A stretch of 27,397 nucleotides of DNA from the IMG/VR virus record IMGVR_UViG_3300035698_007144, positions 1 through 27,397 of that record; one strand, 5' to 3'. Positions within the stretch are counted from its first letter, which is position 1, and each line of letters starts with the position of its first letter. Of this stretch, positions 5,116 through 24,983 are shown piece by piece. The stretch comes from a virus. Position numbers and translations under genes: made by a program. The notes under the pieces are model-generated. The model saw only the letters and a list, made by a program, of their open reading frames with translations. It did no database searches and had not been told where the DNA came from.

Positions 5116-5331
5116 ATGAGATTATATGAAATTTTAAATGAATCTAATTATGAAAACAGATATGCCGGCGACCGTGAGACCCAATTGTATATGGAAGGCC
5201 AGTGTGTCAAATTAGCAGTTGCATTGAATACATTAAATCCTGATAGATTTATTTTGGGATGCCTATATGAACATACCGCAGCGCCTAATCATGATACCAA
5301 TAGATCAAGACCTTTGGAAAACATTTTCTAA
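5116..5331 (+). CDS. N-terminal part of an apparently frameshifted late protein
   Basis: 71 aa from ATG 5116, one base after the preceding stop; AGGA at 5109-5112 is close upstream. The N-terminus MRLYEILNES matches the short amphipathic leaders seen on several proteins of this late region. Residues about 18-47 (GDRETQLYMEGQCVKLAVAL, then a strand-like ILGCLYEH) look like the first half of a small papain-like or ADP-ribosyl-type fold in which G-x-C heads a helix, but the reading frame then becomes low-quality (about 49-71) and ends. The expected second half continues in the +1 frame as the next ORF. No catalytic claim is made. Confidence 0.55.
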   Translation: MRLYEILNESNYENRYAGDRETQLYMEGQCVKLAVALNTLNPDRFILGCLYEHTAAPNHDTNRSRPLENIF

Positions 5332-5776
5332 ACGGGAAAGAAAAGAAATACTAACAAATCCACATCATTGGTCTATGGTTCATGCATTTGTCTTTGATAA
5401 TGAAGCTAATCAATTTCTTGACGCCAGAGGGTATCATTCATCATTAAGGGCAGTTCTAAACTTTTGGGGTACAGGCGGGGAAAAAGAATCTGGGGGCAGA
5501 GATTTAAAATATCCAATTTCTCAGAATGATATTCGTCAAATGTCTTTAGGTACAGACGAGATGGAGGATTTAGATTTAAGCAATAATGCATTAAGAAAAG
5601 CATTGTCATACGCTCAAAGAAAACTGGGTGTAGATATCAGTAATTCAGAAAAGCAACTTAAATCTAGAAAAGCTCCAGTTAGGAAGCCGTATAGAGACAC
5701 ATCTGTTTATCATTCAGATGAAGAAATACCAAGCAGCGATGAAGAGTGGCCTGAAGAGTGGCCTGAAGAAAATTGA
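5267..5776 (+). CDS. C-terminal continuation of the frameshifted late protein
   Basis: Open in this frame from 5237 to 5776; the first ATG is 5267, without a convincing ribosome-binding site (it lies inside the coding part of the upstream ORF). After an insert-like helical stretch, WSMVHAFVFD (about 45-54) followed by FLDARG resembles the H-x-[FV]-V ... D-x-R-G second half of small phage proteins whose first half carries a G-x-C helix, as in the ORF at 5116. The C-terminus is very acidic and repetitive (EEWPEEWPEEN) and holds a basic patch near 130-143. Its last bases overlap the -35 box of the primase promoter. Either one protein made by +1 frameshifting, a broken gene, or an indel in the assembly. 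Confidence 0.55.
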   Translation: MNIPQRLIMIPIDQDLWKTFSKRERKEILTNPHHWSMVHAFVFDNEANQFLDARGYHSSLRAVLNFWGTGGEKESGGRDLKYPISQNDIRQMSLGTDEMEDLDLSNNALRKALSYAQRKLGVDISNSEKQLKSRKAPVRKPYRDTSVYHSDEEIPSSDEEWPEEWPEEN

Positions 5777-20133: not shown

Positions 20134-20571
20134 ATGATTTGGAATAATACCTCCGGAGAGGAGAGATTACAATTTTGGAAAACATTTAGGGGCGAAATAA
20201 CGGGATTGCCCATCAACGACCAATTGGATAAGGTGGCCCAGTTTTGTGCGGCAATTCCGTTCGGTGCTAGGGCAGTAGACTACTATAGTCCCGGAGATTG
20301 GCCGACGCCATGGGAGATGCTGTACCACGGTGAATTCTGCACAAGTTCCATAAGTATTATAATCTTTTATACGCTAGTTATGGTATCGAGTGAGATAGAC
20401 GTTAGTTTTCTGCTTGTGGAGGATGATGATGGTATATATCTTCTTCCGTTGGTGAGTAATCAGTATATTTTAAACTATGAGTTAGGTAAGGTAAGTAAGT
20501 ACTCAGAGCTCAGGGATAATTTTAGAATATTAAAGACATATTCTAAAGATCAAATAAAAACAATAACATAG
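20134..20571 (+). CDS. Conserved T4-like phage protein of unknown function
   Basis: 145 aa. Segments such as P-F-G-A-R-A-V-D-Y-Y-S-P-G-D-W-P-T-P-W-E (about 46-65), then H-G-x-x-C-T-S-S-I-S near 69-78 and LLVEDDDGIYLLPLVSN near 92-108, match from memory a hypothetical protein conserved in aquatic T4-like phages. The sequence looks globular alpha/beta; the C-T-S-S-I-S and I-I-I-F-Y-T-L stretch is hydrophobic but too short to call a membrane segment. No function known. No Shine-Dalgarno sequence. It ends with TAG just before nrdA. Confidence 0.75.
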   Translation: MIWNNTSGEERLQFWKTFRGEITGLPINDQLDKVAQFCAAIPFGARAVDYYSPGDWPTPWEMLYHGEFCTSSISIIIFYTLVMVSSEIDVSFLLVEDDDGIYLLPLVSNQYILNYELGKVSKYSELRDNFRILKTYSKDQIKTIT

Positions 20572-20584
20572 AGAGAAAGTAATT

Positions 20585-22003
20585 ATGGCATCAACGAGAG
20601 AAATAATGGTAGAAAAAAGGGACGGTACAAAAGAGCCCTATGATGTTTCCAAAATCAAAAAATCTATTGAAATGGCAACAGAACGACAATCTGTTAACCC
20701 ACTAGAGTTGGAATCTAAATTTGATCAGTTCCTTAAACCTGGCATAAAGACCCGTGATATACAACTGAATGTCATTCAACATGCTATCCAACTTGCCACC
20801 CCAGGTGCACCGGACTGGGTTAACGTAGCAGGTAGGGCACTTGCTATGGACGAATGGGCAAACTTTTCTTTGCGTGGAAAGTCATTTAAAGAAGTGGTTC
20901 ACTATAATGTAGAAGAAGGCAACTATTCTAAGGATTTGCTAGAATTTTATTCAGATGATGATTTGGAAACCCTGGGCAAAGCAGTGAAGATGAATCGAGA
21001 TTTGGACTATAGCTATGCAAGTCTGATAACTGCCAAGAAAAAGTATTTAGGAAAGGCGGAATTGAATCAACACATGCACATGGTTAATGCAATGAGATTC
21101 GGTCAGTTGGAACCTGCTAGCACTCGAATTAAGTTTGTTAAAGAAGTATATAACGCACTCTCTCAGCGTAAAATATCCCTTGCCACTCCTTTCTTGTCGA
21201 ATTTACGAAAAGGCGGCAACGTTGCCTCCTGCTTCATTATTGCCATAGAAGATGACATTGACAGCATTTTTGATAATATCAAACGAGTTGCGCTAATATC
21301 TAAAAACGGTGGTGGCCTGGGGCTATTCCTCGGTTACCTGCGTGCAAAGGGTGCTGATGTAAATGGATATCAAAACGCCGCTGGAACAATTGTCCAGTGG
21401 ATTAAGATTTTGAACGACACATTGGTAGCTGTCAACCAAGGCGGGAAACGCGCCGGCGCAGGCACCATTGCATTGCCTATATGGCACAATGATGTGTTGG
21501 ATTTTCTAGACATGCAAACTGAGCATGGCGACCCCAGAATGAAAGCATATGACGTATTTCCACAAGTTACTGTTCCGGATATATTCATGGAGAGGGACAG
21601 AAACAAAGGAGAGTGGCATACTTTCTGCCCGTTTGAAGTTAAGAAGAAGCTAGGTATCGATGTCAGGGGAATGTATGGCCCGGCATTCACAGAAGCTTAT
21701 CTTAAAATAGAAAAAGCAGCAAAGGACGGAAAGTTGTCAATCACTCGTAAATTTGACAATGCGCGTGACTTAATGAAAATAATTATGCGTGTCCAATTCG
21801 AGACGGGGTTGCCTTACCTTGCATTCACAGACACCATAAACGAATATAATCCAAATAAGGGCGACGGATATGTTACTGTAGAAGGGCACAACGGGAACAC
21901 ATACTCCTTTATGATGTCGGACATCATTAATACAAAAAACCGCGGAGAAATACCGGCAGGCGATCTAAACGAAGATGATGAAATTATTTTAGGTGATAAA
22001 TAA
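20585..22003 (+). CDS. nrdA: Ribonucleotide reductase large subunit, N-terminal piece (NrdA-a)
   Basis: 472 aa from ATG 20585. It begins with an ATP-cone domain (about 6-95; V-E-K-R-D-G-T-K-E-P-Y-D-V near 9-21) and continues into the catalytic barrel: F-L-S-N-L-R-K-G-G-N with V-A-S-C216 (equivalent of E. coli Cys225, one half of the redox pair) and GGGLGL. It reaches the GLPYLAFTDTINEYNPNK segment, where intact NrdA would run on to the N-x-C-x-E active-site loop. From about Y429 to the end, 44 residues are foreign to NrdA and end NTKNRGEIPAGDLNEDDE, resembling the end of a split-intein N-fragment. The N-intein first block (C-L-x-G-D) is absent. The rest of NrdA is encoded at 22688. Confidence 0.92.
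   Translation: MASTREIMVEKRDGTKEPYDVSKIKKSIEMATERQSVNPLELESKFDQFLKPGIKTRDIQLNVIQHAIQLATPGAPDWVNVAGRALAMDEWANFSLRGKSFKEVVHYNVEEGNYSKDLLEFYSDDDLETLGKAVKMNRDLDYSYASLITAKKKYLGKAELNQHMHMVNAMRFGQLEPASTRIKFVKEVYNALSQRKISLATPFLSNLRKGGNVASCFIIAIEDDIDSIFDNIKRVALISKNGGGLGLFLGYLRAKGADVNGYQNAAGTIVQWIKILNDTLVAVNQGGKRAGAGTIALPIWHNDVLDFLDMQTEHGDPRMKAYDVFPQVTVPDIFMERDRNKGEWHTFCPFEVKKKLGIDVRGMYGPAFTEAYLKIEKAAKDGKLSITRKFDNARDLMKIIMRVQFETGLPYLAFTDTINEYNPNKGDGYVTVEGHNGNTYSFMMSDIINTKNRGEIPAGDLNEDDEIILGDK
21995..22002 (+). promoter_or_regulatory. Late promoter box GATAAATA upstream of the HNH gene
   Basis: GATAAATA overlaps the last codons and stop of NrdA-a, 34 bases before the HNH ATG at 22029, the same spacing as for the structural genes. 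It could give late expression of the endonuclease, and of NrdA-b and nrdB. Confidence 0.5.
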
Positions 22004-22028
22004 ATGCACAAGTTTACACAAGGTGCAA

Positions 22029-22691
22029 ATGAATTACCAGCGAATCTATAAAGACATAATCGATCGATCTACAAAAAGAAATGGGATAAAGTATCCAGAA
22101 CGACATCATATAATACCGAAATGTATGGGCGGCACCGATTCTAAAGATAATTTAGCAATTCTTACCCCGAGAGAACATTTTATATGCCATTGGTTATTAG
22201 TGAAAATGACACCGGGTAACAGGAAACTAAAATATGCATTTACAAGAATGTTGCAGCCAGCATACTCGAAGAGTTATAAAATTTCAAGAATACAAAATTC
22301 CATCCAGTACGAAATTGTTAGAACTTACGTAGCTGAACTGGCAAGGGAAACAAATACAGGACGATCAAAGACAAAAGAAGAGATACAGAAGATGCTGGCT
22401 ACAAGAGAGGAAAGATATGGTGGAACGGATTACTTAGGTAGTTGGTGTCGTGGAAAAAAATTAGGACCCGTATCTAAAAACGGATTTGAATATGGATCTC
22501 ACTTAATTGGCACCAAGCACTCGGATGAAGTTGTTGCCAATCAGAAAATCGGAATGAAGATATATTATGAAAATAACGATCATCATACAAAAGGTAAGAA
22601 ACAAACAGTAAAAATTTGCCCACACTGTAATAAGCATGGCGGAAATTCAATGTTACAATGGCATTTTGAAAAATGCAAGGAAAAGAAATGA
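22029..22691 (+). CDS. HNH homing endonuclease inserted in nrdA
   Basis: 220 aa from ATG 22029 (AAGGTG at 22020-22025). The start MNYQRIYKDIIDR and the HNH core P-E-R-H26-H27-I-I-P ... N41-L ... H50 are typical of mobile HNH endonucleases of T4-like phages. Downstream are two NUMOD3-like DNA-binding motifs (GRSKTKEEIQKM and GTKHSDEVVANQK). At the C-terminus a zinc finger C197-x2-C200-x11-H212-x3-C216 follows. It would cut intron-, intein- or gene-free alleles of nrdA to spread itself. It lies between the two nrdA pieces: 25 bases after NrdA-a and overlapping NrdA-b by 4 bases, with no room for a group I intron. A late promoter box precedes it. Confidence 0.92.
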   Translation: MNYQRIYKDIIDRSTKRNGIKYPERHHIIPKCMGGTDSKDNLAILTPREHFICHWLLVKMTPGNRKLKYAFTRMLQPAYSKSYKISRIQNSIQYEIVRTYVAELARETNTGRSKTKEEIQKMLATREERYGGTDYLGSWCRGKKLGPVSKNGFEYGSHLIGTKHSDEVVANQKIGMKIYYENNDHHTKGKKQTVKICPHCNKHGGNSMLQWHFEKCKEKK

Positions 22692-23644
22692 CAACAGTAA
22701 AAATAAAGAAAATAACAAAGACCCCGGGTAATATTCCATGTGTTAATCTTTGTACGGAGTCTTTCTCTAATGTAAAACCTGACGAACTAGGCCACGTTTG
22801 CAATCTTGCGTCTATTGTGCTGGGTAATATTAAAGACTTTAAGGAACTGGGGGAGATATCATATCTAACCACCAGAATTCTAGATCACGGTATAAGCCTG
22901 ACTAATGCCCCTGACAGAATTACCGCCAACCACAACTCCCGATACAGGACAATAGGCATTGGTATGCAAGGCCTCCATGACCACTTGGCTCGCGAGTATA
23001 TGAATTTCAGAGATTTAGATTACATCAGAGAAATTGCAGAATGTGTAGAATACCATGCTGTTTTATCTAGTATTGATCTTGCAAAGGACTTCGGATCCTT
23101 CGACGCGTTTGACAAGTCTGAATGGAAAAATGGAAATAGAATCGAGCAGTTTAAGATGCATGCATCCGGTAACTACGACTGGTCGGCCGCCCAAGAAGAG
23201 ATTGACAAACACGGTATGAGGAATAGCCAGCTAACAAGCCCAGCACCAAACACAAGTACCTCTATCTACATGGATTCGAGTGCAAGCATACTACCGGTGT
23301 ATGATTCATTCTTCTCTGAAGATAACAAGAATGGAAAACTTGTCGTGGTTGCAAAGTTTTTGAAGGATAATCCTATTGGGTATGGAAAAACATTCCCTAA
23401 GCATACTGCAACTGAAATAATTGATGTAGTTGCTGAACTACAGAAGTTTATTGACACTGGCTGCTCGATGGAGTTAATATTTGACCAACGCAAAGAGAGC
23501 TTTAATGCTAAAGAGTTGTATGATGCGATTCATTATGCACACAAGAAGGGAATTAAGGCAATTTACTACATCAGAGCTATTAAGAATAATGCGACCGTTG
23601 ATAGTATAACTAAGGAAGAGGATTGCGCTTCCTGCGCAGGGTAA
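22688..23644 (+). CDS. nrdA: Ribonucleotide reductase large subunit, C-terminal piece (NrdA-b)
   Basis: 318 aa from ATG 22688, overlapping the HNH stop (ATGA) with AAGGAAAAG as ribosome-binding site. The first ~15 residues (MTTVKIKKITKTPGN) are not NrdA-like and resemble the start of split-intein C-fragments, but the intein end block (H-N before Cys/Ser) is missing. NrdA sequence resumes at I16-P-C-V: N20-L-C22-T-E24 equals the catalytic N437/C439/E441 loop of E. coli NrdA, C38 equals Cys462, and the C-terminus ends DCASCAG with the C-x2-C shuttle pair. So the redox pair Cys225/Cys462 is divided between two polypeptides. The barrel region includes PAPNTSTSIYMDSSASILP. Function requires association with NrdA-a. 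Confidence 0.92.
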   Translation: MTTVKIKKITKTPGNIPCVNLCTESFSNVKPDELGHVCNLASIVLGNIKDFKELGEISYLTTRILDHGISLTNAPDRITANHNSRYRTIGIGMQGLHDHLAREYMNFRDLDYIREIAECVEYHAVLSSIDLAKDFGSFDAFDKSEWKNGNRIEQFKMHASGNYDWSAAQEEIDKHGMRNSQLTSPAPNTSTSIYMDSSASILPVYDSFFSEDNKNGKLVVVAKFLKDNPIGYGKTFPKHTATEIIDVVAELQKFIDTGCSMELIFDQRKESFNAKELYDAIHYAHKKGIKAIYYIRAIKNNATVDSITKEEDCASCAG

Positions 23645-23655
23645 CATAGGGATAT

Positions 23656-24672
23656 ATGACAGAACTTACACGAAAAAAGATATTTGACGAGAACGGGGAC
23701 GATTCCCAAACTGCCAGAAAAATGATTAACGGCAACACTACAGGTATTCTCAACCTCAATAGTGTTAAGTATCAATGGGCATCTAAACTTTACAAGATAA
23801 TGGTGGGCAACTTTTGGATTCCTGAAAAGATTTCACTCGTTGACGATAGGGTAACTATTAAGGAACTTACTAAGGATGAATTAGAGGCCTTTAAAAACAC
23901 GCTATCTTTCCTCATTGCACTAGATAGCATGCAAGTTTCTAACTTACCAAACATCGCCGATTACATTACTGCACCAGAGATTGCAGGACTTTTCACGATT
24001 CAAGCATTCCAAGAATTGATCCATTCGCAGTCATATCAGTATTTGTTACAAGAGTTATTCCCTAACACAGAGAGGGAAGAGATCTACAACTATTGGCGCA
24101 ACAATGAATTGCTATTGAAAAGAAATAAATTCATTGCAGGCCAATACCAAAAATTTAATGATGTCAAGTCACTCTATAATTTTAAGAATGCCATAGCAGC
24201 AGATTTTGCATTAGAGGGAATATACTTCTATAACGGCTTTCAGTTCTTTTACCAGCTTGCAGCCAGGAATAAGGTAGCAAACGTTGCTAAAATGATTAAA
24301 TACATTGAGAATGATGAAGTCACGCATGTTAATATGTTTGCAAACATCATTAGAGAGATATTCGATGTTAACGATGAGGTGGACAGGAAGATATTACTAG
24401 ATAATATCACACAGGCTGCCGAACAAGAAATCGAATGGGGGAAGGAAATTTACGGGAACAGAATTCTCGGAATTTCCACAGAGAGTACCGAGGCGTATGT
24501 AAAGTACCTGACTAATCAGAGAACTAAAATAATTGGTTTAGGTGTGGTGTATAAAGGGTTTACAAAGAATCCGTATGAGTATCTCAATTCAGAGAAGCGT
24601 GAAAACTTTTTTGAGACAAAGGTAACCGAATATAGCCGCAGTGAAGCCGTAGATGGATGGGATGAATTTTAA
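23656..24672 (+). CDS. nrdB: Ribonucleotide reductase small subunit NrdB (class I)
   Basis: 338 aa, 11 bases after NrdA-b. It carries the diiron/tyrosyl-radical centre: D90 (A-L-D-S-M-Q), E120 and H123 with the radical tyrosine Y127 (Q-E-L-I-H-S-Q-S-Y), E187 (F-A-L-E-G-I), then E221 and H224 (N-D-E-V-T-H). All ligands and the tyrosine are present, so it should be a conventional class I beta subunit and not a tyrosine-less variant. The C-terminus ends in an acidic/aromatic tail (DGWDEF) of the kind that docks on the alpha subunit. It provides dNTPs together with the split NrdA. The stop overlaps the next start (TAATG). Confidence 0.95.
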   Translation: MTELTRKKIFDENGDDSQTARKMINGNTTGILNLNSVKYQWASKLYKIMVGNFWIPEKISLVDDRVTIKELTKDELEAFKNTLSFLIALDSMQVSNLPNIADYITAPEIAGLFTIQAFQELIHSQSYQYLLQELFPNTEREEIYNYWRNNELLLKRNKFIAGQYQKFNDVKSLYNFKNAIAADFALEGIYFYNGFQFFYQLAARNKVANVAKMIKYIENDEVTHVNMFANIIREIFDVNDEVDRKILLDNITQAAEQEIEWGKEIYGNRILGISTESTEAYVKYLTNQRTKIIGLGVVYKGFTKNPYEYLNSEKRENFFETKVTEYSRSEAVDGWDEF

Positions 24673-24983
24673 TGTTACAACAGAAACAGAAAGAAGTACC
24701 GTATATTGGCATTTTTAAGCTAGGTAGTGGCGAAGAATTCGTATGCAAGGTTTTACAGGAAACTGCGAATGCTTTTATAGTATCGAAGCCGCTAACACTT
24801 GGGCAGACGCAGAAGGGCGTACAGTTTGTACCTATTCTGATGCTTGCAGATCCGGACAAGTCTATCACTATTCCGAAACCTGTAATCGAAGGTGAGCCCT
24901 CGCCTGAACTTATTTCCCAATATGAAAGTATTACAACTGGCATAGCCTTGCCACAGAAAAGTGCTATTCAGGTAGCTAGATAA
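24672..24983 (+). CDS. Small conserved protein, possibly Sm-like fold
   Basis: 103 aa, translationally coupled to nrdB (TAATG). The N-terminal half, Y-I-G-I-F-K-L-G-S-G-E-E-F-V-C-K-V then A-F-I-V-S-K-P-L, has the strand-turn-strand pattern seen in small Sm/SH3-like phage proteins (K/L-x-x-G-E-E-x-[VI] ... V-x-x-P). The tail is Pro-rich. No catalytic motif. The assignment to an Sm-like fold is a guess from pattern; function unknown. Confidence 0.65.
   Translation: MLQQKQKEVPYIGIFKLGSGEEFVCKVLQETANAFIVSKPLTLGQTQKGVQFVPILMLADPDKSITIPKPVIEGEPSPELISQYESITTGIALPQKSAIQVAR

Follow-up and report, generated by a model that had tools for sequence, protein, structure and literature searches.

A viral ribonucleotide reductase gene in pieces, with a non-splicing split-intein fragment as the tail of its first chain

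Introduction

The active ribonucleotide reductase (RNR) of Aeromonas phage Aeh1 has the composition (alpha-a + alpha-b)2 beta2 (PMC3267527). Fractured genes with split inteins were named as a class by Dassa et al. (2009), cited in PMC3653736. Split inteins assemble by electrostatic capture between an anionic N-terminal fragment (IntN) and a cationic C-terminal fragment (IntC), followed by collapse (PMC11766414), and for Npu DnaE the capture charges have been located in the N2 lobe and in IntC (PMC11923092). Here we describe the RNR locus of an uncultured phage, IMG/VR virus record IMGVR_UViG_3300035698_007144, a viral contig of 27,397 bases that was analyzed at its full length and is termed the window below. 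In the window nrdA consists of two open reading frames (ORFs) with an HNH gene in between and nrdB after them, all on the + strand.

The locus resembles that of Aeh1 in that a Mob-type HNH gene separates nrdA into two ORFs, both chains carry tails foreign to NrdA, and the catalytic residues are divided between the chains. What is new is an Aeh1-like genes-in-pieces RNR that has a non-splicing intein fragment as the tail of its first chain (N-tail). We consider it likely that NrdA is made here as two chains, NrdA-a and NrdA-b, whose junction bears split-intein pieces that are permanent and do not splice, and that these tails dock non-covalently.

The Tails of NrdA-a and NrdA-b

The NrdA-a ORF (20585-22003, +) encodes an RNR part followed by the N-tail (GYVTVEGHNGNTYSFMMSDIINTKNRGEIPAGDLNEDDEIILGDK; 21866..22003, +, including the stop codon). 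The tail itself comprises residues 428-472 (21866-22000), 45 amino acids without an NrdA counterpart in any relative. An earlier, sequence-only reading of the window had put these residues at about 44 and likened them to the end of split-intein N-fragments; apart from the one residue, both statements were borne out. On a first profile, built from 10 N-fragment ends of split inteins, the N-tail scored 22.0 bits, whereas 20,000 shuffles of the tail reached 10.9 at best, and in a six-frame translation of the whole window it was the sole significant match (E 1.3e-4). On a larger profile of 23 sequences of phage split inteins the score was 24.4 bits, and the best of 100,000 shuffles reached 13.3.

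Database searches with 47 residues gave modest E-values, yet both top matches were RNR split inteins: among all PDB sequences the NrdJ-1 intein (8ubs, E 0.2) ranked first, and among 50,697 phage records Klebsiella phage KP13-7 (E 0.04). The nrdA of KP13-7 is fractured; the matched ORF is NrdA followed by an IntN, which belongs to a complete split intein with IntC-NrdA downstream, and the N-tail matches it at 45% over 40 amino acids. A scan of IMG/VR with the KP13-7 N-fragment found zero relatives; the N-fragment alignment (A2) as query found 29. Aligned with 18 split-intein N-fragments from viral contigs, the N-tail runs without gaps from before block B through TKNRG (N-tail GNTYSFMMSDIINTKNRG, N-fragment GNVLKCTGDHLIYTKNRG), retains the end TKNRG..A.DL.EDDE and stops at the natural split point of split inteins. 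When modelled with the alignment of N-fragments, it was predicted to form four strands (predicted local distance difference test score, pLDDT, 87.6). The top PDB match of this model was again NrdJ-1, with a template modelling (TM) score of 0.67, and the RecA and DnaB inteins also matched at 1-2 Å. It is thus well supported that the N-tail is homologous to the N2 lobe, which forms the second half of the N-fragment in phage split inteins of the RNR type.

The tails of Aeh1 reportedly came from random sequence at the mobE insertion. That insertion gave tails without intein similarity and the HNH gene of the window is also of MobE type, so the tails described here could likewise be random sequence that resembles an intein by chance. 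We find this very unlikely, since the profile score lies far above those of 100,000 shuffles and two independent database searches both rank RNR split inteins first. A copy of the nrdA-mobE flanks of sister phages was also considered as the source of the tails and rejected, as a local tblastn search with the tail gave only intein loci above noise.

NrdA-b (ORF 22688-23644, +) consists of a C-tail and an RNR part. The C-tail, its first 12 residues (MTTVKIKKITKT; 22688..22723, +), is similar to strand 1 of intein C-fragments, the closest fragment being MIKIKKIKVK of L087, with MIKIRKIEVE of L085 as a further example (L numbers designate the loci compared). The sequence-only reading had likened this start to that of a C-fragment; a resemblance to strand 1 was seen, but it is weak, as 18 of 1,156 phage protein N-termini scored as well on a strand profile, the share that did so being 1.6-2.8% (p about 0.02). 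The likeness of the C-tail to the first strand of IntC is therefore suggestive only.

Loss of Splicing

The sequence and the alignment confirmed that the first cysteine, the block B histidine and the terminal HN are missing, as had been noted earlier. The N-tail starts about 60 residues into IntN and has neither block A nor Cys1. In block B, CTGDH is replaced by FMMSD, with M-M-S-D in the place of the lost TxxH. Blocks F/G, the terminal HN and the +1 nucleophile are absent, and NrdA-b runs from KITKT directly into PGNIPC. Since all of these elements are missing, the sequence makes splicing impossible. A self-splicing RNA intron was ruled out as well: no Rfam intron was found in 20500-24700, and the gaps of 25 and -4 nucleotides between the ORFs leave no room for a group I or group II intron.

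The Insertion Site

The junction reads NPNKGD, then 45 amino acids, a stop codon, the HNH gene, 12 amino acids and PGNIPCVNLC. Comparison with 51 distinct relatives showed that the split is flush, with zero NrdA residues lost or duplicated, and that the window is the sole family member found with a split in this loop. In about 50 distinct uninterrupted IMG/VR relatives the loop is surface-like and variable in length, e.g., NPNKGDDNGHVGIPCVNLC, NPNKADGSIPCVNLC and NPNKNDPGNIGITNVNLC. The insertion precedes the thiyl-radical cysteine by about 8 residues, and the +1 residue after the insert is a proline. Three members of this NrdA family carry cis inteins, all at NL^C, about 9 residues downstream of the split. 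A location of the insert at this usual NrdA intein site was ruled out by the 51 relatives, which place it about 8-9 residues upstream.

A related phage with a full split intein at the same position had been looked to as decisive. None with a complete split intein at the exact site (D427|P) was found, and no sampled relative has an intein there. The exact tail sequence was not found in other IMG/VR contigs, and when bacterial genomes were scanned once for this NrdA family, the only match was a distant one in a Caulobacter genome. In L025 (1372-3547) nrdA is frameshifted after ...VLGNIR and has no insert; this may be a sequencing error.

The sequence-only reading had proposed a split intein that decayed or was pruned. 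A non-splicing, intein-derived N-tail fits that proposal, as do the order IntN-homing endonuclease gene-IntC, known from fractured genes, and the agreement of the split position with that of split inteins. Decay in place from an intein that once functioned in this loop is nevertheless rather unlikely. It would require two separate deletions that each end exactly at an extein border; in addition, no relative has an intein in the loop, the inteins of this NrdA family are at NL^C, and the +1 position holds a proline. We prefer that the insert was placed by insertion or pruning, because it lies flush in a variable loop and not at NL^C. A segment consisting of the IntN end, a stop codon, the endonuclease gene and the IntC start may have been inserted flush into the loop, or pruned within it; a single insertion of that segment would give flush ends in one step, and we favor it over decay in place.

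Conservation of the Two NrdA Chains

The RNR part of NrdA-a (residues 1-427; 20585..21865, +) matches Pfam PF03477, PF00317 and positions 1-205 of the PF02867 profile. It comprises the ATP cone, the alpha domain and the first portion of the barrel with Cys216, ends in ...NEYNPNKGD, and is 80-88% identical to the intact NrdA of relatives. The RNR part of NrdA-b (22724..23644, +) begins with PGNIPCVNLC, matches PF02867 positions 201-426 and carries Cys22, Cys38, YY and a C-terminal CxxC. The Pfam barrel domain is thus cut at about profile position 203, and no part of the enzyme is lost, because the match in NrdA-b continues from that in NrdA-a. By the residue roles in class Ia RNR, Cys216 of NrdA-a is the equivalent of E. 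coli C225, and Cys22 and Cys38 of NrdA-b, which also has the tyrosine pair and the CxxC, are those of C439 and C462. With the catalytic residues divided in this way, a single active site needs both chains.

The proportions of synonymous (pS) and nonsynonymous (pN) differences between the split exteins and intact relatives were 0.85 and 0.096, compared to 0.84 and 0.107 for pairs of intact genes. The window differs at 4 of 416 positions that are invariant in 21 relatives; eight intact relatives, tested alike, differ at 0-18. By these sequence comparisons both NrdA halves are as constrained as uninterrupted relatives, a constraint that does not give the duration of the split state. Since conservation of the exteins matches that in uninterrupted relatives, the split enzyme is probably active. 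As the arrangement is a single observation, the contig could be misassembled or a dead variant. Either is highly improbable: every ORF is intact, ribosome-binding sites and the ATGA overlap described below are present, and the exteins are fully constrained.

The HNH Endonuclease and Neighboring Genes

The middle gene (22029..22691, +) encodes an HNH homing endonuclease of 220 amino acids in the MobE family (PHROG 655). The protein matches phrog_655 with an E-value of 2.9e-50, scores 17.7 bits against Pfam HNH, which is below the cut-off, and has a zinc-finger-like CxxC..H..C motif at its C-terminus. The closest proteins among annotated phages were the MobE proteins encoded between nrdA and nrdB of T4-like phages (T6), with 36-38% identity over the full length. 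In a tree the gene groups with free-standing MobE/MobB and is separated from four sampled HNH genes of split-intein RNR genes (99/97). By sequence the enzyme is a MobE-type homing endonuclease, with putative cleavage at nrd genes.

In sister phages, free-standing MobE-like genes were found exactly between an intact nrdA and nrdB in L005 (8025), L030 (2878) and L031 (8256), and just upstream of an intact nrdA in L026 (5328). In L225, L242 and L249 the RecA-like gene uvsX is fractured by a complete split intein, with a MobE-like HNH gene as the middle gene. Enzymes of this family do therefore travel with split inteins.

The HNH gene is preceded by a linker of 25 nucleotides (22004..22028, +) with the Shine-Dalgarno-like sequence AAGGTG (22020-22025), and its stop codon overlaps the start of NrdA-b (ATGA). 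A ribosome-binding site, AAGGA (22677..22681, +), serves the NrdA-b ATG at 22688, and an alternative ATG is located at 22673. A 5-bp hairpin, TGCAC/GTGCA (22005-22009/22023-22027), could mask the AAGGTG of the HNH gene; for mobE of Aeh1 a comparable hairpin is said to hide the ribosome-binding site. The fold of the hairpin region was not significant by shuffling (z-score -0.61), nor were the RNA folds around both start codons. Downstream, an intact ORF of 338 amino acids (23656..24672, +) encodes the RNR small subunit NrdB, and this nrdB is 83-88% identical to those adjoining intact nrdA in relatives. Elsewhere in the window, two overlapping short ORFs (5116-5331 and 5267-5776) at 5116-5776 could represent another interrupted or frameshifted gene.

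A Possible Second Case

In locus L224 (928-3490 of IMGVR_UViG_3300005805_006304) another loop of nrdA (GEAPD / AGKRFSH) is the site of the split, and the intervening MobE-like HNH gene belongs to the same family. The N-tail of this nrdA has 49 residues, is colinear with IntN positions 6-45 (N1 lobe) and lacks Cys1. It scored 14.7 bits, a value that the best of its own 50,000 shuffles also reached, and had no database match of its own; the C-tail gave no IntC signal on the strand profile. The tail charges are -5 and +2. By its sequence L224 is a possible independent second case, to be taken as a lead only. Reuse of the docking half may recur, because nrdA of L224 is likewise split, with oppositely charged tails.

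Discussion

The pieces that survive at the junction are the N2 lobe, with a net charge of -6, and the C-strand, with a net charge of +4, i.e., a capture module without the catalytic lobe. By analogy with the capture step of split inteins it is plausible that the two tails bind to one another: the acidic N-tail would dock with its basic counterpart on NrdA-b, and the docked tails would hold NrdA-a and NrdA-b together non-covalently, as the unrelated tails reportedly do in Aeh1. Several observations weigh against this reading. The profile search suggested by the sequence-only reading was positive for the custom split-intein profiles, but Pfam and NCBIfam gave no match for the N-tail alone and their intein models were silent. 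The structural match is biased because an intein alignment underlies the N-tail model; the model of full-length NrdA-a leaves the N-tail unstructured (pLDDT about 28) and is uninformative on it. The similarity of the C-tail is weak, and the unrelated C-tail of Aeh1 scores nearly as well. Finally, the arrangement is carried by one contig only.

The tails could also be intein leftovers that are neutral baggage, with the NrdA halves associating through their own large barrel interface. The variable, surface-like loop, the disorder of the N-tail in the NrdA-a model and the single barrel domain shared by both halves are consistent with this. We regard it as unlikely, as the retained features are non-random: the TKNRG..A.DL.EDDE end and the opposite charges were kept while the catalytic residues are gone. 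Crona et al. (2011) reportedly found the Aeh1 tails to be essential, which we also count against neutral baggage.

We prefer docking of the tails. An intermediate between protein splicing and a stable genes-in-pieces enzyme had been foreseen from the sequence, and the locus agrees with it, with an intein-derived N-tail that cannot splice and conserved NrdA halves. The broader idea, that phages made a permanent assembly domain out of a split intein's docking half, which keeps a broken essential enzyme together after the loss of splicing, is a tentative but serious possibility. If the tails dock, they would represent a natural intein that lost splicing yet was kept as an assembly device, a testable intermediate for the survival of essential genes in pieces, and a short natural heterodimer tag.

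Compared to known systems, the window differs from Aeh1 in several respects. The nrdA gene of Aeh1 (L052 11490-14629) is split elsewhere, after the NLCIEIALP motif. Its tails are also oppositely charged, with +6 for NrdA-a and -9 for NrdA-b, and the window has the reverse polarity (-6/+4). On the intein profiles the Aeh1 tails score 0.1 and -2.0 bits, whereas the N-tail of the window matches; the Aeh1 tails were ruled out as intein relics by these negative profiles.

Fractured nrdA genes with complete split inteins (KP13-7, Yersinia phage TG1 and L084-L106 from IMG/VR) share with the window the N-fragment end, the split position and the order IntN, endonuclease, IntC on one strand. They keep Cys1, TxxH and HN+1 and are located at NL^C, whereas the insert of the window is in the upstream loop and lacks about 60 residues from the start of IntN and about 25 from the end of IntC. 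In KP13-7 (L050 2843-8373) nrdA is broken into several pieces; the region holds two split inteins, a GIY-YIG gene and other ORFs, and its annotation lists nothing but hypothetical proteins and two nrdA fragments. TG1 (L079 1708-5355) has a complete split intein with an HNH gene in nrdA at NL^C and is annotated with two RNR genes. NrdJ-1 (8ubs), the top PDB match of the N-tail by both sequence and fold, is complete and splices, whereas the window represents its N2 lobe only.

The MobE genes that lie between nrdA and nrdB in T6 and its relatives and in L005, L030 and L031 belong to the same HNH family and have the same ATGA overlap with the next nrd gene, but they are intergenic and leave nrdA whole. 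In the fractured uvsX genes the middle gene of the split intein is from this HNH family too, but that intein is complete and splicing and the host gene is another one. Altogether, the locus connects two peculiarities known before: the repair of fractured genes by split inteins, and the split RNR of Aeh1, held together by tails of unexplained origin.

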